Made by a program: the position numbers and the translations under genes. This document shows, in pieces, positions 16,644-34,982 of a stretch of 38,842 bases of DNA; positions within the stretch are counted from its first letter, which is position 1; each line of letters begins with the position of its first letter. The notes beneath the pieces are model-generated. The model was given only the letters and a program-made list of their open reading frames with translations, was not told the DNA's origin and made no database searches. The DNA comes from a virus. The stretch spans positions 1-38,842 of the IMG/VR virus record IMGVR_UViG_3300048837_000745. One strand, 5' to 3'.

Positions 16644-17882
16644 CTACGTAGTGGTTAGTCCAGCCATGTAGCCATGTGCGGTCGGAGTAATTCCGAACTC
16701 ACCATAAACTGCATAGCGAGCCTGCCACGTATCGTTCGTAGGCGACATGCGGAAGATGCTTCCTCCAGCAGTCGGGTCCTCAATCCACCCGCCATCAGGA
16801 CGAGCGTGGAACTCTACGAAGTCAGAATTGAGGAAGTACAAAGTGTCGTCCTCAACAAAGCGCTCCGCAATCACCGGGACCGGGCCAGCGTCACTCATGA
16901 ACTCAAGAGCAGAGAACGAGAACTTACCTTTCGGCCCCTCGTTGCGGCTCTCAACCACCATGTAACGCTTCTGGTCCTCAAGCTGATTGAGCAGCTTTCG
17001 GTACTGAACAAAGCTGGTTACCAGCATGTCAGGCGTCTCGCCGAAGGCATACTTAATCTCAAGCATACCCTCGTTCAGAAGGTCAGGGACAAGCCCCGCG
17101 CCTACTGACGCATTCTGGTACGAAGCCTGCCATCTGTACCCAATATCAATCTGATATGCCTGTCCGCTTGTCGCAGCAAGAATACCACGCAGACCGGAAG
17201 CATCATTGCCTCGCGAATTCTGCATGTAGATGTTATGAGTACCAGCTCCAATGGTCGCAAGATTCAAAGTTGCACCATCTCGCTGAGTAAGCCGCACCAC
17301 CCGAGTCGCACGAGTTACGTTGGTAACCTCGAACAGAGCACTGTCAGAGTTTACGTTCACGTAATCTTTGGTCTCGAAGTTAGCGAGCTTCCAAGAAGCA
17401 GCAGTAATAGTCACATCGTACACGTTCGGGGAAACCAGCGCTTGGCTTCCAGAGAACGAGCCGAGCCGACCGTTACCCGCGCCGGAATCAGCAAGGTGGT
17501 CATTGAAGAGCATGCGCGAAAGGTTCGCCTGCCAAGACTGAACGCCGCGCTTTACTGGCTCACGAGAGAGCCGCACAAACGCGCCTTCATCAGTCTGAGA
17601 AGCCTTAATCGCCTCGTTATCAATCTCGATAAGGGCATAAAGCTTCTTGGCGTTGATTCGCATACGAGCGTAATTCGTCGCATTTGCGCGAGGAATCGAG
17701 CCCGAACCGCGTCCACCACCAAAAGAGGTAGGAACGCTGATAAGCGCCTCTTCACCAACAAAACTATCGTTACGCTTAATCTTCGCAAGAACGACGTTCT
17801 CGCTGTTGAACATATCGCGGCTCATGCGGAGGTATTTGGTTTTAAATACCCCCTGAGCCGTAGTAAGGTTATAAGTAGCCAT
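16644..17882 (-). CDS. Major capsid protein
   Basis: 412 residues, located after the scaffold gene and followed by its own terminator, the standard arrangement for the most abundant virion protein. The N-terminus (MATYNLTTAQGVFKTKYL), the basic glycine-rich loop (SFGGGRGSGSIPRANATN) and the C-terminal part (WQARYAVYGEFGITPTAHGY) fit an HK97-fold capsid protein of the podovirus type. The start codon has no clear Shine-Dalgarno; an RNA hairpin ends three bases before it. Confidence 0.8.
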   Translation of the reverse strand: MATYNLTTAQGVFKTKYLRMSRDMFNSENVVLAKIKRNDSFVGEEALISVPTSFGGGRGSGSIPRANATNYARMRINAKKLYALIEIDNEAIKASQTDEGAFVRLSREPVKRGVQSWQANLSRMLFNDHLADSGAGNGRLGSFSGSQALVSPNVYDVTITAASWKLANFETKDYVNVNSDSALFEVTNVTRATRVVRLTQRDGATLNLATIGAGTHNIYMQNSRGNDASGLRGILAATSGQAYQIDIGYRWQASYQNASVGAGLVPDLLNEGMLEIKYAFGETPDMLVTSFVQYRKLLNQLEDQKRYMVVESRNEGPKGKFSFSALEFMSDAGPVPVIAERFVEDDTLYFLNSDFVEFHARPDGGWIEDPTAGGSIFRMSPTNDTWQARYAVYGEFGITPTAHGYMAGLTTT

Positions 17883-17885
17883 ACG

Positions 17886-17925
17886 GCAGCACCGTTAAAT
17901 AAAGGTTAATGAGAAACGGCGCTGC
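17886..17925 (-). promoter_or_regulatory. mRNA hairpin abutting the capsid gene start codon
   Basis: On the minus-strand transcript, GCAGCGCCGTT pairs with AACGGTGCTGC (11 bp, one G-U) around an 18-base loop, ending three bases before the ATG. The single mismatch on the plus strand becomes a G-U pair on the transcript, so the fold fits the sense RNA. It may control capsid translation or stabilise a processed mRNA 5' end. Confidence 0.6.
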
Positions 17926-17932
17926 TTTAGCT

Positions 17933-19243
17933 TTATCTAAATCGCGCCGCCCAAGCTTCCCGCTCTAGCTTTCTCTGCCATTCGCGGTCAGCTTCTACGT
18001 CCTCATCACCCTTCTTCGCCGCGCTGCCCTCCTTAAGGCTTGAATTGAGGCGCTGTGAGCGCGCCTTTTCAACCTTACGGTTTAGGTTCTGAACCGACTT
18101 TGAAGGAGTCGAAACAACTTGCTTAATAATATACTCTAGGTCCTCAGGCGTCCATTTTGGGTTTTGATAGGCTTGAGCATATAACTGCCTATACAAATCC
18201 TCTTCCTTGAGGAGCGCCTTGTCGACCTTACTCATAGCCTGCTGTACTTTTATCTGAGTTGTCAACTCATGATGTACTTGGATAACCTGCTCAGGCCCAA
18301 CCTCCTCTATAGACTTAAACTGCTTGTCAGGCCCTACTAGGTTCTCCTCAATAAGCCCATAGAGCCCATTGAACTGCTCAGGCGTAATCCCCCACGCCTT
18401 TGTTAGCTCACCAATCTTTTGGGCTACAGCTTGAGCCTGCTGCTCAAACCCCACCTGCCCCTCAAGCTCTTTAGCCCTCCTTTCGGCCTCCTCCGCCCTC
18501 CTTTCAGCAAAATACTTCTCCCTCTGCTCAGGGGTCATCCGAAAGTAAATCTCATTAACCTTCTCTAAGTTCTCAAGAAATTGCTTCTCGTAGGCGACCG
18601 CATCCCCATTAGCGCCAGCCGCCATCTTAGCGAGCGCCTTTAAAGCGGGGAGAGGGTCCCCAGTCTTAGAAATCTCTACTACTTCCCGCGCCCTTTGGAG
18701 GATGTTTTGCACCTGAGCGGTGGCGCGCCTTTCCTTCTGGTCGGCAAAAGTAAGCCTGCGGTCAATGTTCCGGTTAAACTCTTCCTGACCAAGCTTGGCC
18801 TTAATCGCGTCTTTAATGGCGAACTTAAACGGCTTTCCATTTACCTCAAATTCAACCTCAGCACTTTCTGGGATATCCACCTCTTCATCACCGAGACGAG
18901 CCTTAAGGACTCCAGCAGGAACATCAGAATCCTCGCCTTCTTCGCCTTCTTGGTCTTCACCGCCCTCTTCGCTGGGTTGTGTTTCAGGCTCAGATTCCGC
19001 TTCTGCTGGAGTTTCTTGTTCACCGCCCTCTCCTTCTAAAGACTTTACGACCTCCTTAGCCGCTGCCTTTTTTTGAGCCGCCTCTTGGATAGCGACCTGC
19101 TTGTCAGCCTCGGCCTCTATCTCCTCAGCCTCAGCCGCGGGCTCAGAATCATAGATTTTTAGAAGCTCATCAGCCGTCCCGGGGCCTCCCTTCATACCAA
19201 CCGGGGCCGGAGTCTGCGAAGAAGTATTAGGTGTCATATTCAT
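17933..19243 (-). CDS. Scaffolding protein
   Basis: 436 residues, between portal and capsid genes. Very acidic, low-complexity N-terminal third (Glu/Gly/Asp/Pro, for example EGGEDQEGEEGEDSD), a short beta motif (EVDIPESAEVEFEVNG), then long charged helices (REKYFAERRAEEAERRAKEL) and a basic C-terminus. This layout is typical for phage scaffolds, whose basic tail binds the capsid protein. The start overlaps the portal stop as ATGA. Confidence 0.8.
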   Translation of the reverse strand: MNMTPNTSSQTPAPVGMKGGPGTADELLKIYDSEPAAEAEEIEAEADKQVAIQEAAQKKAAAKEVVKSLEGEGGEQETPAEAESEPETQPSEEGGEDQEGEEGEDSDVPAGVLKARLGDEEVDIPESAEVEFEVNGKPFKFAIKDAIKAKLGQEEFNRNIDRRLTFADQKERRATAQVQNILQRAREVVEISKTGDPLPALKALAKMAAGANGDAVAYEKQFLENLEKVNEIYFRMTPEQREKYFAERRAEEAERRAKELEGQVGFEQQAQAVAQKIGELTKAWGITPEQFNGLYGLIEENLVGPDKQFKSIEEVGPEQVIQVHHELTTQIKVQQAMSKVDKALLKEEDLYRQLYAQAYQNPKWTPEDLEYIIKQVVSTPSKSVQNLNRKVEKARSQRLNSSLKEGSAAKKGDEDVEADREWQRKLEREAWAARFR

Positions 19244-21471
19244 GGTAATGGTGCTGGTGTTACGCTAGGCGGTGGAGGAGCAACAGGGGCTCCTTGGTCA
19301 AGAGGCATCCCCGGGTCAAGAGGAGCCTCTGGCATTGTAGAACCTACCGGCCCGGGAGGGGGCATCATACCGCCGCCCATTATAGGAGGAGGCAGAAGAT
19401 TCGCCCCCGGAACCGGCAGCTGAAAGACCACAGGCCACTGTGGGCATTCAAGCATGACCTTTTGCTTAAACAGCTCATTTGGCGCTGCGTGCATAATCCC
19501 AAGCGCGTCAATTACCCCATAAGCCTTCACATACATCAGATATTCAGTCATCTGCATGTGGTCTAAAAGAAGCTGACGCGCTTCTGGCGGGACTACGGTC
19601 TTAAAGTCTATGCCCTGCATCTCCTGAAGATGCGTTCTCCAGTGGACAATGAGGTCTTCGTAGTTAGTAGGCTCAGGGACTGGAGCCCCCTTCCTCATCT
19701 GCTCGTTCTCTGTATTCGCGGCAACATAAGCCTTAGTTGCCACGTCCTTAAACTCAGCAAGGGCTCCAAGGTCTAGTAAGCGAATAAACTGCTCTCTGCC
19801 TATTGGCGCATCGGGCGGGAGCCGCACATTCGCAAGCTCAATAAGCTCTTCCACCCTAGCTGCTGGAGACTGCGATAGCGCGGTAGTACTCTCCACTCTG
19901 ATGTCATAAGGCTTGGCAAGGTTAGCCACCTCAAAGGAGCGAATGCGATACTCGTTTGTTTTGCCCGCAACCCTCGCAAGACGACCATCAGAGTCATCAT
20001 AAAAATCCCCTGCGGTGGCAAGCGTCATCTTTGCGTCACCCACAAGAGCCACATCGTTGTACTTAATCGCCATATAGTAGGCGCGCTTGTCTTCTTGCTC
20101 CTCCACGATGCGAAGCGCTTTTGCTGCACGGATGCCGCTAGGAGCTTGACCAGTAGAGAGCGTGTATTGGCCAGAAAGCTTATTGAACATCTCCTCAAGT
20201 TTATTGAGGTACCCAAAGATTTCCTGCGGGAACACTCCGGTCTGCAAAATTCCGGGCGGCTGGTCAGAATACTGAATGATAGTCGACTCATTCACAAGCT
20301 GCTGCACATCCACCGTTCCTTCTTGAGCGGTAATCTTTGGATGGGCAAGAAGAACAAGGCTCTTGTAGATAAGAGAAGCGCACGCATTAATCTGATGCTG
20401 CACTGGGAATATCTGCTGAATAAACGACATTCCGCGAGACTGGCCCGGCACGTCTATGTCAGACAGATAGATGTATGGGAGCTTGCCGTGAGAGTAAGGC
20501 AGCTCAGTATTCTCAAGGATAACGTTCTTGATGCGCTTAATTAATCGGCCCTTATCGAGCATTGGGTGATGCCGGTGGTAAAGCGTATAGAGAACACAAT
20601 CGTTCTCAGCCTTAGCAATGTTTACGTCAAAGTCTTTAAAGATGTTAAACCCGCCGTCTGCTTTTATCTGATCGGCCTTGTCTGGGTATCGAGCCTTAAG
20701 CTCATCTACGTTTACTACCTCCCACTCGATAGCCCAATCAATCTTGTCACGAGACGAGCATGGCTCTTCAAATACGTGGTATCCGGGGACAATGCGATGC
20801 TCAACTTCGCCGATTCTTACTGCTCTCTGAATGTAGAGAGGTTTGCCGTCTTGTCCCATTACAGGCTGACCAGCAGAGTCTAGAAGAGGAATGCGCTCCC
20901 CTCTCTGAGATAGAGCTACGTAATCAGGATGAAGGTCGCCGAGGTCCGGGTTATAATTAATAAAGCGGAAGCACTCACCAGTAACTTTAGTGAGGCGCAC
21001 AAGCTCTGCATTCTTTTTGTCGATTTCATTTAGATACCAGATGTAATCGAGAACATCCTTAGCAATCTTTGCGTCCTCTGCGTCTTTTGCTTCAGCGTTA
21101 GCAGGGTTAATGGCAACCGCAGGGCGAAAGCGCGTGAGCTTAGAAACCCAATACTCCACGGCGTCCCATGTGTGATTGAGGACGATTCGTGGGCTCCTGC
21201 GATTGGAAAGAGCAACCTTCTCCCAGTAGCGATTGGCGTACTTTTCTTGAAAGAGCCACTGGATGCCGCGATAGATTAGAAGGTTGTCACGCTGAAGCTG
21301 AAAGTAATCGCCGTAATACTTTTCACAATACTCAACGGCCCCACTAAACCAACTCTCGACTTCATTATCATTACTAAAGTCAGGAATAGTCCAAAGCGGC
21401 TTTAACGCCACTACAGAATTAAGAACCTCATCAAAGGGGCTTCTGGTTATGGGGCCTATACTAAAGCTCAT
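19240..21471 (-). CDS. Portal protein
   Basis: 743 residues, in the size range of large podovirus portals such as P22's. The N-terminal segment has WLFQEKYANRYWEKVALSN and a helix before the stem (TWDAVEYWVSKLTRFRPAVA). The middle contains YLSDIDVPGQSRGMSF and a long helix near QHQINACASLIYKSLVLLAH, with STGQAPSGIRAAKALRIVEE beyond it, as in portal proteins. The last 60 residues are Pro/Gly/Met-rich. It lies between terminase and scaffold as expected. It forms the dodecameric DNA channel at one capsid vertex. Confidence 0.85.
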   Translation of the reverse strand: MSFSIGPITRSPFDEVLNSVVALKPLWTIPDFSNDNEVESWFSGAVEYCEKYYGDYFQLQRDNLLIYRGIQWLFQEKYANRYWEKVALSNRRSPRIVLNHTWDAVEYWVSKLTRFRPAVAINPANAEAKDAEDAKIAKDVLDYIWYLNEIDKKNAELVRLTKVTGECFRFINYNPDLGDLHPDYVALSQRGERIPLLDSAGQPVMGQDGKPLYIQRAVRIGEVEHRIVPGYHVFEEPCSSRDKIDWAIEWEVVNVDELKARYPDKADQIKADGGFNIFKDFDVNIAKAENDCVLYTLYHRHHPMLDKGRLIKRIKNVILENTELPYSHGKLPYIYLSDIDVPGQSRGMSFIQQIFPVQHQINACASLIYKSLVLLAHPKITAQEGTVDVQQLVNESTIIQYSDQPPGILQTGVFPQEIFGYLNKLEEMFNKLSGQYTLSTGQAPSGIRAAKALRIVEEQEDKRAYYMAIKYNDVALVGDAKMTLATAGDFYDDSDGRLARVAGKTNEYRIRSFEVANLAKPYDIRVESTTALSQSPAARVEELIELANVRLPPDAPIGREQFIRLLDLGALAEFKDVATKAYVAANTENEQMRKGAPVPEPTNYEDLIVHWRTHLQEMQGIDFKTVVPPEARQLLLDHMQMTEYLMYVKAYGVIDALGIMHAAPNELFKQKVMLECPQWPVVFQLPVPGANLLPPPIMGGGMMPPPGPVGSTMPEAPLDPGMPLDQGAPVAPPPPSVTPAPLP

Positions 21472-21950
21472 TGCGCTCTACCGTTAAAACGCCGTCTTGC
21501 GTCTTCCAGAATCTCCCTTTCTTCTTCTGTAAGCGTCGGCTCTAACCAGTCTATAGACTCATCCTCCCTTTTGGCTAGGTCCTCCAGAACAGAACGATTT
21601 TTTAAGGCTTGTTCATACGAATGTCTTGGAGGGCGAGTCGACAAAGCCTTTTGAATCTGCCCCACGCCAAGCACACCCGAACCAGCCAGAGAGTAAGCTC
21701 TTTCTGCCATTTTCTGGGCAACCTTCCCATCAATAACCTGCTTTTGATAAAGACCTATGAGGCGCTCAAAGCGCTTATTAAGCTCAGACTCCGCCTTAAT
21801 CACGTCCTCTACTGCCCGATGCCCTCTTAAGACGGCGTTACTAACATCTTTGATGGCTTCTCGCTGCTTTCGCTGCACCCGCAGCATAAAAAGCATGGAA
21901 ATAGCCAGAACCGCGTTACCAACCAGAATAATCGCTTGCAAGAGAGTCAT
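21468..21950 (-). CDS. Membrane-anchored coiled-coil protein of unknown function
   Basis: 160 residues. A clear N-terminal transmembrane segment (LLQAIILVGNAVLAISMLF) is followed by basic residues and a long helical region (RKQREAIKDVSNAVLRGHR). It overlaps the terminase end by 35 bases and the portal start by 4. The shape would suit a spanin-like or membrane-associated assembly protein, but there is no recognised family and its place between terminase and portal is unusual for lysis genes. Confidence 0.6.
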   Translation of the reverse strand: MTLLQAIILVGNAVLAISMLFMLRVQRKQREAIKDVSNAVLRGHRAVEDVIKAESELNKRFERLIGLYQKQVIDGKVAQKMAERAYSLAGSGVLGVGQIQKALSTRPPRHSYEQALKNRSVLEDLAKREDESIDWLEPTLTEEEREILEDARRRFNGRAQ

Positions 21951-23460
21951 TTAATACCTGCTCCGTCCAATCGTCGTTCTTTATATTCACTTGGGCTATC
22001 GCGTGAGGCACCCCCTCCGCCGCGAACACCTGCTTCTGCTCAGAAAACGGGACCTTTTGCCTCGCCCTAATGCCCAAAACCGGCACACTATAATCAAGGC
22101 AATCTAACAAATGGTCATTTAATTTCGGTATGTTACCGTTGTCGTCGGTAGAGTAGCTCTCAATTTCTTTTGCAAAATTGGTACATCTTTCAGATGCCAG
22201 AAAGGAGTCTTCGGTGGCCATTAAGGTTTTTAGGATAGAGAAGTTCATATCCTTCTTAAATCGCTGCTTCCTAGAGGGCGTAATGGAGATACTAAAATTA
22301 GCCACCATCTCCCTGCGGAACCACGCTGCGGCCTCGTCTGCACATCTGCGCCACTGGACTCCCGGGGCAAGCTCCAGTTCCTTCTTCTTGGCCACTGCCC
22401 AAATACTGGCCGTATCCATTTTCTTGCGGTCCTGCTCATAGATTTCATCAAGGAGAAAGAGAGTCGAGGTGTAAGGGTTATAGGCGAGGAAAAGAGCCGC
22501 AAAAGTGGAGGTGGTCCCCGGGTCAAACACCGTGGCAAAACGGCACTCCCCCATCTGCACAGACAGACGTGTCATTATCTCAGAATGCGGCCTCATGTGG
22601 GTTCCGCGAGACCAAAGCGGGAATATCATCTCCGCGCCGCCTATGCAGTCTTCGCCTAGATACTCGCGCTTCCAAACCGCCTCATCTCCTTGCGCGATAA
22701 GAGCTTCTCTAATCTTCTTAAGCTCATCCTTGTCGATGGTAGGGTTAATCTCGGTAGGGAATTCTAGATAAAGGCGAGTCTCATCCCCCTTCGTCTGCTC
22801 TTTTAAGAGCCTCTTCTTAAACTCAAAGTAATAACAATCCCGCTTAGGGGGAGTCCCGAGAGCTACAAGCACCGCAGTTTTTGCAAGAAGATTTGGGCGC
22901 ATGACTTCAACGTCAAATTCCTTGCAGTGGTCTTGGAACTCGTCATAAATAACTAAGTCAGGCTTAATTCCTCGGAGCGCTGCGTAATTCTCGGCTCCCT
23001 CAACGCAAATAAACGCACCATTCTTAAATTCTAAGCGGTATTCTGACTTGTTGGGCTCCCCCTTAAGGTATTGACGGGGGCCATAGTCAACAAGGCGGTT
23101 AGACGCCCAGTAGATTTCTCCGCCTTGTTTTCTTTGAGGGCAAATAATGTAGATACGAGCATTAGGCGTAAGCATCGCCTTAGCCCACGCAATGTAACAG
23201 GCAGTCTCAGACTTTCCGGCATTACGCCCGTACTGAGCTTGGACGATGCGCTTGCCTTCCGAGAACACGGCCCTTGCAAGAGCTATCTGTCCGGGATGGA
23301 GCGGCCTCTTATGCACCGTATTGATACGGTGATAGAGGTCAGTCATCGCGACGACGTGGCTTTCTATGGCATCATTTGCCCAAATCTTAGAAAGCTTCTC
23401 CTTCGCTATCGACTCCCTCTCCCGGTATTCCTTCTTCGTTTCCGCCCTCGGTATCGCCAC
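21916..23460 (-). CDS. terL: Terminase large subunit
   Basis: 514 residues from a GTG at 23460, which has AAGGAA five bases upstream; a TTG 15 bases earlier lacks a ribosome site. The ATPase part has a Walker A-type motif (GRNAGKSE) and Walker B (LVIYDEF, in PDLVIYDEFQD). The nuclease part has an acidic strand (ATVFDPGTTSTFAALFLAY), a second (LFLLDEIYE) and a late acidic motif (LLDCLDYSVPVLG). It powers DNA packaging at the portal. It overlaps the upstream gene by 74 bases. Confidence 0.9.
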   Translation of the reverse strand: MAIPRAETKKEYRERESIAKEKLSKIWANDAIESHVVAMTDLYHRINTVHKRPLHPGQIALARAVFSEGKRIVQAQYGRNAGKSETACYIAWAKAMLTPNARIYIICPQRKQGGEIYWASNRLVDYGPRQYLKGEPNKSEYRLEFKNGAFICVEGAENYAALRGIKPDLVIYDEFQDHCKEFDVEVMRPNLLAKTAVLVALGTPPKRDCYYFEFKKRLLKEQTKGDETRLYLEFPTEINPTIDKDELKKIREALIAQGDEAVWKREYLGEDCIGGAEMIFPLWSRGTHMRPHSEIMTRLSVQMGECRFATVFDPGTTSTFAALFLAYNPYTSTLFLLDEIYEQDRKKMDTASIWAVAKKKELELAPGVQWRRCADEAAAWFRREMVANFSISITPSRKQRFKKDMNFSILKTLMATEDSFLASERCTNFAKEIESYSTDDNGNIPKLNDHLLDCLDYSVPVLGIRARQKVPFSEQKQVFAAEGVPHAIAQVNIKNDDWTEQVLNDSLASDYSGW

Positions 23461-24067
23461 TTTGTTCCTTGGCAAAGTCTATGGCCTGTATCTGCATGGC
23501 CTCGTAATCAAAAACAGGGTCAATCTCTTTAAGCTTCTCCATCGCCGCGCCAAGCATTGGCCCTCCTTGCGGCATAGATTTATGAGCAATAGCAACATGA
23601 CTGGTGGCCTGACCAAGCTCAAGGCGGCCCATCTGGTCTGCGGTATGAGCAACGGAGAGAATGGTTTTAGCCTCTGAAGGCTTCATGCTTCTTACGCGGT
23701 CTGGGTCTGCAAGGAAATTATTGAGCCATTCCTGCGTGGCAATAAGGGCCTTTTCTTTTATTTCTTGAATGCGCTGGATGTTAGTCTGCATTGCTTCCCT
23801 AATCATCTGCTCTTGGAACTCGTTCACCTTCTGACGAGTCTCAAGCATTATCTCAAAAAGCGGGAGCTTTGCGTCTTCTATGCACTCGTAGTCTTTCTCA
23901 ATCTCCGTCAGTGCTGCGAAGAAGTCCTTTTCTATTACGTTTGCGAGTTGCTTTACCTGCTCCTTCGGAGTTTTGAACTGCCCCGTCCTCCGGCCCCCCG
24001 GCCCCCTCCTTGGACGCGGTGATTTCTGGCTCGTAACTTGGGGCCCATTGTCCATTGGCTCTGTCAC
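23387..24067 (-). CDS. Probable terminase small subunit
   Basis: 226 residues if it starts at GTG 24067 (GAAGAGG six bases upstream); ATG 24055 is an alternative. After a basic Pro/Gly/Arg-rich start (KSPRPRRGPGGRRTG) the chain is helical (QVKQLANVIEKDFFAALTEI). The segment MKPSEAKTILSVAHTADQMG followed by RLELGQATS resembles DNA-recognition subunits of terminases. The C-terminus is acidic. Its position directly before terL supports the call. It overlaps the upstream gene by about 170 bases. Confidence 0.6.
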   Translation of the reverse strand: MTEPMDNGPQVTSQKSPRPRRGPGGRRTGQFKTPKEQVKQLANVIEKDFFAALTEIEKDYECIEDAKLPLFEIMLETRQKVNEFQEQMIREAMQTNIQRIQEIKEKALIATQEWLNNFLADPDRVRSMKPSEAKTILSVAHTADQMGRLELGQATSHVAIAHKSMPQGGPMLGAAMEKLKEIDPVFDYEAMQIQAIDFAKEQSGDTEGGNEEGIPGEGVDSEGEAF

Positions 24068-28868: not shown

Positions 28869-29107
28869 TTAAGGGTTTCCTCTGGCAAAACAGGCTCAAA
28901 CTTAAGGAACTCTATGTCCGCAAAGAACTCAAAAGAGCAGTTGCGGCATGAGAAATCTATATAATCCCCCCTATTGTCTGCAAAAAACCAAGGCTTAGAG
29001 CAGTTAGGGCAGGGCAGATGCCCATTAGGGATTTTAAGAAGCTCCCTCATATCAAGGGAGGTAATAGCGACGGTGGTTTTCTCTCTGAAATCAGAAGTTT
29101 TCTTCAT
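28733..29107 (-). CDS. Double zinc-ribbon protein
   Basis: 124 residues from the ATG in the ATGA overlap at 29107. Four CxxC pairs are present: CPNC and CRNC in the first half, CPKC and CRSC in the second, giving two tandem zinc ribbons of about 25-30 residues spacing. Zinc ribbons of this size commonly bind nucleic acid or act as structural modules. It is the second gene of the late operon, where a transcription or packaging regulator is possible. The specific role is unknown. Confidence 0.75.
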   Translation of the reverse strand: MKKTSDFREKTTVAITSLDMRELLKIPNGHLPCPNCSKPWFFADNRGDYIDFSCRNCSFEFFADIEFLKFEPVLPEETLKCPKCQKNQFAIQIAQPFLCIGCRSCEHQWTADLQRTISGIHLLN

Positions 29108-29391
29108 CGCTTCCACCCCAAATACTTACGCTCTGCGTAAATAGCATCCTCAATAGGAGAGAACTCAGCATTTATCCCGTGGTCTGCTATCGCCGCCCTA
29201 ACCCCAGCAGCATGACCGTCGATGTAAGCCTTCTTGAGCCACTTATCAAAGACCTGAGCAATAGCCCCATCAGCCTCCTCAAGAGCCTCATCCCCATCCT
29301 CATGCTGAGTTATGAGATACCCAAGCTGAGATGCTAAAGCCTCCCTTATGTCCTGACGAAAAGCCGAATACTCTAAATTTACCTCTTGCAT
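29104..29391 (-). CDS. First gene of the late operon, unknown function
   Basis: 95 residues, start preceded by AAGGAGG. Acidic and helical (EYSAFRQDIREALASQLGYL; EDGDEALEEADGAIAQVFDK), no recognisable motif. It begins the leftward operon, so the late promoter should lie in the non-coding region to its right. Overlaps the zinc-ribbon gene by 4 bases. Confidence 0.6.
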   Translation of the reverse strand: MQEVNLEYSAFRQDIREALASQLGYLITQHEDGDEALEEADGAIAQVFDKWLKKAYIDGHAAGVRAAIADHGINAEFSPIEDAIYAERKYLGWKR

Positions 29392-29482
29392 AAACTATGC
29401 CTCCTTGTTTATCCTTGGGGGGTCATTCTCCTTGTTTAGATGCTTTTCCTCCCGGGGGGCGTCTATTCATTCTTGACGGCAC
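29392..29482 (-). promoter_or_regulatory. Late operon leader with repeated ribosome sites
   Basis: The leftward leader has two AAGGAG sites. The distal one precedes a five-codon frame (ATGACCCCCCAAGGATAA) and the proximal one precedes the first gene. I cannot identify a convincing -35/-10 here. The short frame may be a leader peptide or only a chance start. Confidence 0.35.
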
Positions 29483-29522
29483 GGCCCCCCTACTAGTCCA
29501 TAGCTGGTAGGGGGGATTTTTT
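29483..29522 (+). terminator. Strong rightward intrinsic terminator
   Basis: CCCCCCTACTAG pairs with CTGGTAGGGGGG (12 bp, one G-U) around a 7-base loop, followed by ATTTTTT. It acts on rightward transcripts entering from the late region, where every gene is leftward, so it would stop antisense transcription or end a short RNA. Confidence 0.85.
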
Positions 29523-29604
29523 GCCTCCACACCTTACTTCCCCCTTGAAGAAAATACTAGTCTTTTGTTACCCTAGACTTCTAATGTCTAAATCCTCCTC
29601 GTCA

Positions 29605-29980
29605 TCCGTACCGGCCAACGAAGGAGCAAAAACAATACACCTCGGGAGGGGGCTTGTTGCCGGTTGAACTGCGGACAGTGATTTAAGCCGCATATATCCT
29701 TAATGCTGCCTTACTTGGTACTAAGGACGAAGGCCGCTGCTTCGGGACACTATGGCACGAAGAACGTGTAAGACCCGAGCTGGTGATTGAATATAAAGAG
29801 CCGACAGAGTAGCCACGGCCCACGATAGATAGCGTGTTCTTAAGTAAGGTGGCCTAGGCGAAGGGGCGGAACTCATGGATTGGTGAACAGTCCGATAACC
29901 GGGGGAGGCATCCCCCGACCCCCACGGGGAGGTAGTGAGTCCGCAGTAGCCCAAGACCAATCAGTCCAATCCACGCAAAC
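29605..29980 (+). ncRNA. Candidate structured RNA with long-range helices
   Basis: No convincing gene lies here; a leftward 79-codon frame is present but not protein-like. Complementary segments are dense. CCGGCCAAC (29611) pairs with GTTGCCGG (29656) with one bulge. CTGCGGAC (29669) pairs exactly with GTCCGCAG (29939). GCTTCGGGACAC (29739) pairs with GTGT...CCCGAGC (29766-29780). GCCTTACTT (29708) pairs with AAGTAAGGT (29842) with one G-U. TGGATTGG (29876) pairs with CCAATCCA (29966), and a 7-bp GGCA-looped hairpin begins at 29900. The hairpin GGATTG/CAGTCC at 29877 needs one G-U that would be A-C on the other strand, favouring the plus strand. CTTACTT lies in the loop of CCTTA/TAAGG, which would make a pseudoknot. 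It does not match tmRNA, RNase P, 6S or intron cores that I can recognise. A DNA-level role such as an origin is an alternative. Confidence 0.5.
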
Positions 29981-29984
29981 CAAC

Positions 29985-30012
29985 TTGTTTACACTCATTT
30001 GAGCTGTATACA
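29985..30012 (+). promoter_or_regulatory. Promoter family member 1
   Basis: TTGTTT, 16 bases, TATACA. The -10 lies in the 10-base palindrome CTGTATACAG, followed by nine G residues. TGTTTACA at 29986 is a half-copy of the palindrome. Weaker fit than the other two members; the rightward transcript would enter a region without a clear gene. Confidence 0.5.
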
Positions 30013-30396
30013 GGGGGGGGGCTTTTTAGTGGCCAAAGCTCAGCTAACGGAATCTATGTCTTGGTAATAATGCAAGAATCGTGCCAACATGAAACAGAGA
30101 TGGCTAAAGAAGAAACAGCCCCGTCTCCTCCCTCTCTAAAAAATAAAAAAATAATGGATACGTGACGTATAGGCGTCAACCACACCCCACCCCTTGGCGT
30201 CCTACCCCCCTCCCTATAAAACAGGGGCTCAGGCTAGGAGCTCTGCCGCTTGGCATGATTGTTGCATAGCCTAGGAAGTAGGCGTTAGTTGACTAGTAAT
30301 TAAAAACTGGTTTCCTATTATGCAGTGGGAGGGGGCTTGCTGACCAAGCCGCATGCTGCTATATAACGGTGTTGTTAGTGTCCCACGGTGGGACGG
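30013..30396. other. Non-coding intergenic region
   Basis: I see no credible gene. The region holds a run of nine G residues at 30013-30021, the hairpin TGACG/CGTCA around 30162, a sigma54-like sequence at 30250-30267, and a GGGAGGGGGCTTG...AAGCCGCAT element at 30327-30354 that matches one at 29644-29693. Two short open frames at 30070-30165 are too short to call. This is where leftward late promoters or a replication origin could sit. Confidence 0.6.
30250..30267 (+). promoter_or_regulatory. Sigma54-like -24/-12 sequence
   Basis: TTGGCATGATTGTTGCAT has GG and GC dinucleotides at the spacing of the consensus TGGCACG-N4-TTGCA, with one mismatch (C to T) in the -24 box. Phage sigma54 promoters are rare and there is no gene directly downstream, so a chance match is the likelier reading. 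Confidence 0.25.
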
Positions 30397-30864: not shown

Positions 30865-30945
30865 ATGGAAGCAACAGAAACCGCGTACTATAATGCGAAG
30901 CCCTCGCGTGGTCATTCGGCGCACGGGGTAAATCTGGCAGCGTAG
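30865..30945 (+). CDS. Very short gene with good ribosome site
   Basis: 26 codons starting MEATETAYYNAKPSRGH, after AGGAGAATAGACAAT, a leader almost identical to the one before the genes at 31674 and 32089. The shared leader is the main evidence for translation. No function can be suggested. Confidence 0.4.
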   Translation: MEATETAYYNAKPSRGHSAHGVNLAA

Positions 30946-30955
30946 CGTATTATGA

Positions 30956-31111
30956 GCCCAATCGCGTGAGGAAATATTCACCCGCGCATTTGAGGCGTAT
31001 TGCTACCGCGAGGGGTACCGCTTCAGCGAATTCGCGCAAGCTGGCCGCCACTGCCTGCCCGACCTGACCCCCGAACTCGTTTCATTAATCGAGCAAGCGT
31101 TAGGCCACTAA
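30956..31111 (+). pseudogene. Protein-like frame without a start codon
   Basis: Open from just after a TGA at 30953 to TAA at 31109; about 51 codons with protein-like composition (FTRAFEAYCYREGYRFSEFA and PDLTPELVSLIEQALGH). No ATG, GTG or TTG is in frame. It is probably the remnant of a gene broken at its 5' end, or reached by a frameshift from the frame beginning at 30954 (ATG AGC CCA). Followed by a long hairpin at 31121. Confidence 0.4.
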
Positions 31112-31120
31112 TCTACAGCC

Positions 31121-32088: not shown

Positions 32089-32370
32089 ATGGGAAACAAG
32101 AAACGAAAGTATACTCAGCGAGATAAAGACGATGCTCTAAAGTTGCTCATTGATGGGGAGTCTAAGACAAACGTGAGCGCACTAACTGGCGTTCCCCTCG
32201 CGACAATAAGCTACTGGGCCGCGAAGATTGGCAGAGTCAAAAAGAGGGGCAGCAGGCGGGCAGAAACAGGAAAGGGAGTGCCGGGAGAGATTCTCCCTTC
32301 CCTGTTTCTGCCCGCCTGCATGGTGCTCATAGCCATTTTGTGGGGAATCGTGCTGTGGGAGGCCCTATGA
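32089..32370 (+). CDS. Helix-turn-helix protein with C-terminal hydrophobic segment
   Basis: 93 residues, AAGGAG-type leader. Residues 8-50 form a helix-turn-helix of the transposase/resolvase type (KDDALKLLIDGESKTNVSAL, then TGVPLATISYWA). The last third is hydrophobic (FLPACMVLIAILWGIVLWEA) and could be a membrane anchor, an unusual fusion. Between them the codons fall in a 27-bp inverted repeat at 32252-32319, so the C-terminal part may have arisen by rearrangement. Target unknown. Confidence 0.65.
   Translation: MGNKKRKYTQRDKDDALKLLIDGESKTNVSALTGVPLATISYWAAKIGRVKKRGSRRAETGKGVPGEILPSLFLPACMVLIAILWGIVLWEAL
32252..32319. repeat. 27-bp near-perfect inverted repeat inside a gene
   Basis: Left arm 32252-32278, right arm 32293-32319, one mismatch in 27, 14-base loop. 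It begins GCAGGCGGGC and ends GCCCGCCTGC. The fold is far stronger than any terminator nearby but is not followed by a T-run. Such repeats can arise by template switching during replication. Confidence 0.95.
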
Positions 32371-33944: not shown

Positions 33945-34441
33945 TGAGGCCGACCTATGAAACCGCAGCCGATAAAGAACGAGAAAGGAGGATACTCGCT
34001 TTTCTTCAGCGCAAATACCCTCAGTTTATATTCAAACCCTTTAATACCCACTGCTCGCCGTGGGACGCTTTTTGCCTCAACTACAACGACGACGGCGACC
34101 TTACGATCAGGTCCATCATCGAAATCAAATGCCGTACTACTCCCATACAAAAATACCCGACCTACCTAATCTCAAGACGGAAGCTCGCTAAAATGTGGGC
34201 ATTTTGCCGTGTTTTTGGCGGCATAAAGAGCTGGGCCGCACACCTCACAAAGAACATTCCTATAAAGCCCGTTCTGGTCGTGCGCTTTTCCGATTGCCTC
34301 GCGTCTTGCGACGTGAGACAAGAAAATAGTGCCCACTGGCAAGAAGCCACAGGAGGCAGGAGGGATAGGAAAGATAAGTATGACACGGAGCAGGTCTTCG
34401 AAATCCCGAAAGAAAACTTTAGAATCATCCACCAGCTTTGA
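33941..34441 (+). CDS. PD-(D/E)XK-type nuclease
   Basis: 166 residues, ATGA overlap. The core shows HCSPWDAFCLNYNDDGDLTI followed by SIIEIKCRT: an Asp in a strand and a downstream Glu-x-Lys, the catalytic pattern of this superfamily. It has a helical start with a basic patch (KERERRILAFLQRKYPQF) and a basic C-terminal region. Roles in the family include Holliday-junction resolution and recombination. Its end overlaps the sigma factor gene by 62 bases. The exact subgroup is not clear. Confidence 0.7.
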   Translation: MMRPTYETAADKERERRILAFLQRKYPQFIFKPFNTHCSPWDAFCLNYNDDGDLTIRSIIEIKCRTTPIQKYPTYLISRRKLAKMWAFCRVFGGIKSWAAHLTKNIPIKPVLVVRFSDCLASCDVRQENSAHWQEATGGRRDRKDKYDTEQVFEIPKENFRIIHQL

Positions 34442-34982
34442 GACCCACGAAGGTTTAAGCTTCGAAGAGCTTTACGAACGCTTCTCCCCCAAGACCCTTA
34501 ATCTCTGTATGCGCCTATGCCCTGAGTGGGCAGAAGAATGCAATCAGGAAATATGGCTGACAGTCTACTTAAAGCGACACACCTTTAAGGGCAACTCAGC
34601 CTTCGCTTCTTGGGTATATAGAGTAAGCCGCAATATCGGCTTAATGAGGGTAAGGAAGCTACGAAAACACAAACAAGACACCCCCCTTGAGGGCCTTTTA
34701 GACGCTGTGCACACCTCAAAGGAGATAGGAGAATACTTCGTCGATAAATCGGTCCTTCCAGACGAGCAAACCCACTCAAAGAGGCTCGCACAAAAGGCTA
34801 TAAGATGTATGGGTAGGCTCACCGAGAGAGAACGCTCCTCTATCGTACTTAGAGGAGTTGAGGGGCTAAAAGATAAAGAGGTCGCGAAAATACACCGAGT
34901 GCCAGTGACGGCCCATAAAACCGTCTATTATAGAGCCAAGCAAAAGCTTAAGCGTTATATGGCGATGTCAGAGGCCGTATGA
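34380..34982 (+). CDS. ECF-type sigma factor
   Basis: 200 residues from ATG 34380 (AGGAAAGATAAGT upstream). Region 2 is recognisable: SFEELYERFSPKTLNLCMRL, EECNQEIWLTVYLKRHTFKG, FASWVYRVSRNIGLMRVRKL. Region 4 follows near residues 145-193: MGRLTERERSSIVLRGVEGL, KDKEVAKIHRVPVTAHKTVY and YRAKQKLKRYM. Both domains of a group IV sigma factor are present and no region 3 is seen. It would redirect host RNA polymerase to phage promoters, perhaps the late ones. The basic Ser/Lys-rich start precedes region 2. It overlaps genes at both ends. Confidence 0.85.
   Translation: MTRSRSSKSRKKTLESSTSFETHEGLSFEELYERFSPKTLNLCMRLCPEWAEECNQEIWLTVYLKRHTFKGNSAFASWVYRVSRNIGLMRVRKLRKHKQDTPLEGLLDAVHTSKEIGEYFVDKSVLPDEQTHSKRLAQKAIRCMGRLTERERSSIVLRGVEGLKDKEVAKIHRVPVTAHKTVYYRAKQKLKRYMAMSEAV

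Follow-up and report, generated by a model that had tools for sequence, protein, structure and literature searches.

The ornate phage-borne RNAs GOLLD, often longer than 800 nt, and ROOL, with a structure backed by covariation, are found near tRNA islands (PMC12286853). A preliminary description of the gene-free DNA at positions 29605-29980 of a metagenomic virus sequence had considered an RNA of this kind, and the proposal resembles GOLLD in being phage-borne, non-coding and multi-helix, and ROOL in being phage-borne, pseudoknotted and multi-helix. On the other hand, the RNA proposed here would measure ~376 nt or less and, in distinction to GOLLD, comes without tRNAs and without an Rfam match, while a tRNA neighbourhood and an Rfam match, by which it would be comparable to ROOL, are likewise absent, and four syntenic relatives offered no homologue in which covariation might be seen. 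Operon 5' leaders such as attenuators and riboswitches provide another point of comparison, as untranslated, foldable DNA lies also here between a predicted promoter and a gene and one strand offers alternative pairings; the locus differs from them in that no known family is present and in that the stronger fold is found opposite to the predicted leader strand. A third described system is transcription by sigma54 (RpoN), which always requires an activator and often reports the nitrogen or stress state. Two predicted sites at the locus share with known -24/-12 promoters the GG-N10-GC spacing and are placed in opposite orientation around ~160 bp which may hold activator sites, but they are situated in a phage genome between the early and the late arm, without a phage-encoded activator. 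In open-access full texts, whose coverage is incomplete, no account of a phage running its own early/late junction by sigma54 promoters was found. As judged from the sequence, these divergent sigma54 promoters, rather than an ornate RNA, appear to be the better supported feature of the junction.

The analysed window is the entire record IMGVR_UViG_3300048837_000745, a linear virus of 38,842 bases (positions 1-38,842), and is a tailed phage genome, in which the late genes point leftward and the early genes, including those for a PDDEXK nuclease and a sigma-70 family phage sigma factor, point rightward from ~31.9 kb (Table 1). This sigma factor (34329-34982, +) is a candidate driver of late or middle genes. 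The two arms are separated by a gene-free stretch of ~1 kb (29392-30396), which ends on the right at a 141-aa leftward open reading frame without known protein family, and the interval 29605-29980 is located within this stretch at the late/early junction, as the preliminary description had recognized. No close relative exists among named phages, with portal identity of at most 27% and no match of the head protein, and the known relatives are metagenomic virus contigs only. A prophage search with TerL and MCP across 85 thousand species genomes of bacteria and archaea retrieved none, and a BLASTN search of the region against phage and plasmid records gave no match.

Table 1. Coordinates of genes and of observed or predicted sequence features of the window
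Feature	Position	Strand	Remark
Major head protein gene	16644-17882	leftward	late
Portal gene	19240-21471	leftward	late
Large terminase gene	21916-23475	leftward	late
First late gene	29104-29391	-	start codon 29391, Shine-Dalgarno AAGGAGG
Intrinsic terminator, rightward, strong	29485-29521	+	~95 bp upstream of first late start codon, antisense to late leader
Interval under study	29605-29980	+	gene-free, foldable, not conserved in relatives
Central foldable domain	29705-29853	+	closed by 14-bp helix, G-U included
Four-way hairpin cluster, 92 nt	29862-29953	+	stem enclosing three hairpins; only strongly stable part
Predicted leftward sigma54 (-24/-12) promoter TTGGCACGATTCTTGCA	30071-30087	-	expected start near 30060
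A-rich tract, GATACGTGA, C-rich TTGGCGTCCT block	30138-30214		between the two predicted sigma54 promoters
Predicted rightward sigma54 promoter TTGGCATGATTGTTGCA	30250-30266	+	same position relative to C-rich block in G004, G005
Palindrome GTCCCACGGTGGGAC, operator-like	30380-30394		present in G002 and G004
Leftward open reading frame, 141 aa	30397-30822	-	right boundary of gene-free stretch

Several features outside the interval were observed in passing. A 27-nt inverted repeat, 96% complementary and with a 14-nt loop, inside overlapping early open reading frames at 32252-32319 forms the genome's most stable hairpin on both strands (z about -10), and the major head protein mRNA folds much more strongly than shuffles around the gene start (17641-18111, -; z to -7). 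At 30865-31120 (+), an ATG with AGGAG is aligned with a gene start of the relative G002; its frame comprises only 26 aa, and a longer coding-looking frame follows in a different phase, which may reflect a frameshift. Within the gene-free region, GGGNGGGGGCTT occurs three times on the + strand (29644-29659, 30013-30028 and 30327-30342, with spacings of 369 and 314 bp), in two of the three copies followed by AAGCCGCAT.

The long-range helices from which the preliminary description had started are present at the positions where it had drawn them. ACTGCGGAC/GTCCGCAGT is a helix of 9 bp (29668-29676/29939-29947) with arms ~270 apart, TGGATTGG/CCAATCCA a helix of 8 bp (29876-29883/29966-29973) with arms ~90 apart, and CCTTACTT/AAGTAAGG is exact over 8 bp and extends to 14 bp when G-U pairs are admitted (29705-29718/29840-29853). 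As the 8-bp helix crosses the 9-bp helix, both together would be a pseudoknot; the 8-bp helix competes, in addition, with the local hairpin GGAUUG-gugaa-CAGUCC. The closing strand (GTCCGC) of the hairpin cluster at 29862-29953 has two possible partners, a local one and 29668-29676; the whole folds with local and with long-range closing are only 4.3 kcal/mol apart.

While these helices are real, the claim that the interval is structured beyond chance was not confirmed over its full length. Compared with dinucleotide shuffles as stability controls, the + strand of 29605-29980 reached z=-1.44, with 27 of 300 shuffles as good, and z=-1.64 in another run (7 of 100), the - strand z=-0.02; the interval is thus barely more structured than chance, and its excess stability is not significant. 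Three helices match exactly over 8 bp or more, versus 0.67 in shuffles (20 of 600 reach three), and at least three are also found in 6% of all genome windows, while the nine helices that reach 9 bp or more when G-U pairs are counted are equalled in number by 31% of genome windows, a helix density that is ordinary for this genome. Cut at the closing helix, the shorter version 29662-29952, a trimming chosen after the fold was seen, has z=-3.4 to -3.6, and on a regression score taken across the genome it is equalled by 2.5% of the 291-nt windows, many of them coding. At 29862-29953 a small local fold is plausible, as the + strand there folds with -46.3 kcal/mol and z=-3.3 (none of 200 shuffles as good), in the top 0.3% of 92-nt genome windows by z and the top 0.1% by energy. 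Over the whole interval as well as in its sub-regions, folding favours the + strand, in agreement with the strand preference initially proposed.

The region was assigned to no RNA family from the outset, and Rfam, with no gathering-score match in the window and no match below E=1 in the region, is consistent with this. An anti-hemB match in the region (E=1.3) is due to chance, and a likeness to core motifs of RNase P and group I introns seen by eye was dropped, as Rfam covers both and gave no match. ARAGORN found neither tRNA nor tmRNA in the window. The 79-aa minus-strand open reading frame, antisense in the interval, matches no protein family and no conserved protein lies in the interval, so that its description as gene-free stands. 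No support was found for a large ornate RNA of the GOLLD or ROOL type: to the lack of an Rfam match, of a tRNA array and of significant excess stability is added that of a counterpart in the four relatives which can be compared.

These relatives were sought with TerL, the portal, MCP, an early-gene protein and the late-start protein, and only four, all uncultured, have the junction, G001 (39.8 kb), G002 (22 kb), G004 (29.8 kb) and G005 (27.4 kb), the contig of the last ending inside it. The gene order at the junction is common to the window and all four, and all carry gene-free DNA there. On either strand, 29605-29980 shows no similarity to the four syntenic junctions above that of shuffles, and R1 and R2, single-sequence covariance models of the interval's two domains, match only themselves. 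The DNA at 30050-30300, to the right of the interval, is similar to G004 and G005 (0 of 100 shuffles). At the place which matches 30138-30214, and beside an A-rich tract, G001, G002 and G005 carry a hairpin CCCCC-CTGGCGGYCT-GGGGG (L009:5601-5627, L008:3001-3025 and L023:27-55, respectively, all on the - strand), and G004 a variant, CGGCGGCTCC (L033:3436-3459, +); the C-rich version in the window (30180-30214) cannot form the hairpin. Among 2.9 million virus contigs, the hairpin pattern is restricted to G001, G002 and G005 apart from one chance match, L040, within a coding region of a prophage that is unrelated. A palindrome, GTCCCACGGYGGGAC, is common to the junctions of the window (30380-30394), G002 (L034:1708-1722) and G004 (L033:3702-3716). 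In G004, TTCCACGTGGAA beside the palindrome looks like a parS-type site.

The interval had been described as lying between a strong rightward terminator and a rightward promoter. The terminator is indeed present (z=-3.8 in a 120-nt window), but a rightward promoter does not adjoin the interval: sigma-70 promoters show no excess over shuffles in the sequence and no rightward one is found next to 29605-29980, the site with sigma54 characteristics at 30250-30266 being located 270 bp further to the right. The motif TTGGCAYGN4TTGCA occurs twice in the 38.8 kb, where 0.01 matches are expected, and both matches are at the junction and point apart. Both fit TGGCAYG-N4-TTGCW, with GG and GC exactly 10 bp apart as in -24/-12 promoters, and no other site of the genome scores as high as these two, nor does any site in ten shuffles. 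Sigma54-type sites are also found at the junctions of G004 (two, L033:3490 and 3819) and G005 (one, L023 near 24), all of them rightward, and 18 nucleotides of the window's leftward site recur unchanged at one of the G004 sites; no such sites occur in G001 and G002. An activator gene of the sigma54 system (PF00158, AAA+) was not found in the phage records, and a host activator would therefore be needed. Of the functions initially considered for the interval, a regulatory one fits best, but the regulation that is visible acts at the DNA level, through the predicted divergent sigma54 promoters and the conserved operator-like elements adjoining the interval.

These observations make it probable, by a small measure, that the interval serves as untranslated leader and spacer where the late operon, running leftward, and the early region, running rightward, diverge under sigma54 control. 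Host sigma54 RNA polymerase with an upstream activator would start a leftward RNA near 30060, which would traverse 29980-29605 before arriving at the first late gene (start 29391), such that the interval would be transcribed as the minus strand and form approximately +80 to +455 of a ~670-nt leader. Control would be exerted at the DNA level, by sigma54 and its activator, and the hairpins of the interval, chiefly at 29862-29953, could at most be leader elements affecting RNA stability or the control of late gene expression. Consistent with a leader, the late genes occupy the minus strand on the left side of the junction, in an order common to the four relatives. Against it, the + strand is the better folder, the opposite of what a leftward leader would call for, G001 and G002 are without sigma54 sites, a host activator is required, 670 nt is long for a leader and the terminator at 29485-29521, which faces rightward transcription, finds no explanation in this model and would have an evident purpose only with a rightward (antisense) transcript.

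The strand preference would be accounted for by a structured non-coding RNA transcribed rightward from 29605-29980 and insulated on its left by the terminator, in which a local four-way domain and the competing long-range closing helix might constitute a switch. This is considered unlikely, albeit not negligible. Besides the better folding of the + strand, the trimmed version (z about -3.4) and the cluster at 29862-29953 with its rank among genome windows argue for such an RNA, and so do strong folds of their own at the junctions of two relatives, at the matching place and in the matching orientation in G002 (L008:3270-3600, minus, z=-4.2) and on the other (right) side of its hairpin in G001 (L009:5200-5560, minus, z=-4.6). 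The G001 and G002 folds, however, differ from the fold of the window and are not homologues of it, and the interval itself, with z of only -1.4 to -1.6 and a helix density that is ordinary, has no homologue by sequence or covariance model. Furthermore, no rightward promoter was detected to the left of the interval, and the consensus promoter reads the opposite strand.

More doubtful is that 29605-29980 (+), with 29862-29953 as its core, represents a fast-evolving class of phage junction RNAs, of which the relatives would possess strongly folded non-coding late/early RNAs with position and function, not sequence, retained, and which would take part, with the sigma54 promoters, in an early-to-late switch; the folds of G001 and G002 keep the idea of a fast-changing junction RNA alive without giving it direct support. 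In G001, L009:4580-5560 (-) is a gene-free stretch of ~1 kb full of perfect hairpins and with a terminator-like end, and makes a stronger case as a large structured RNA than does the interval of the window.

That the junction is a replication origin, with inverted repeats and G/C runs as its DNA elements and the interval as a part of it, appears improbable. The cumulative GC skew has its minimum around 29-32 kb, six runs of at least six G or C are crowded in 29.4-30.2 kb and the A-rich tract, the palindrome and the GC hairpin are conserved in relatives, points that favour an origin, but the skew here merely tracks gene direction, the conserved part falls outside the interval, and neither iterons, tandem repeats or a direct-repeat array nor a recognizable replication initiator adjoining the junction were found. 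Highly improbable is, finally, a cis-antisense RNA that opposes the late operon leader and stops at the terminator, with the interval as the spacer behind: the strength and + orientation of the terminator just ahead of the late start, two copies of CTCCTTGTTTA (29401-29411 and 29428-29438, +) complementary to the first late gene's Shine-Dalgarno stretch and, in the corresponding position of G002, a GC hairpin with TTTTT behind it that looks similar by eye would suit this, but no promoter was found for it, the G002 hairpin, which exceeds the loop limit of the terminator scan, is absent from its output and the terminator is not detected in G001.

If the junction is under the control of the predicted sigma54 promoters, an uncultured tailed phage lineage would tie its divergent gene control to the sigma54 of the host. 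Should, on the other hand, a structured RNA be transcribed from the + strand, it would be a new phage RNA without relative in Rfam. In either case, the junction is a compact and testable control region.
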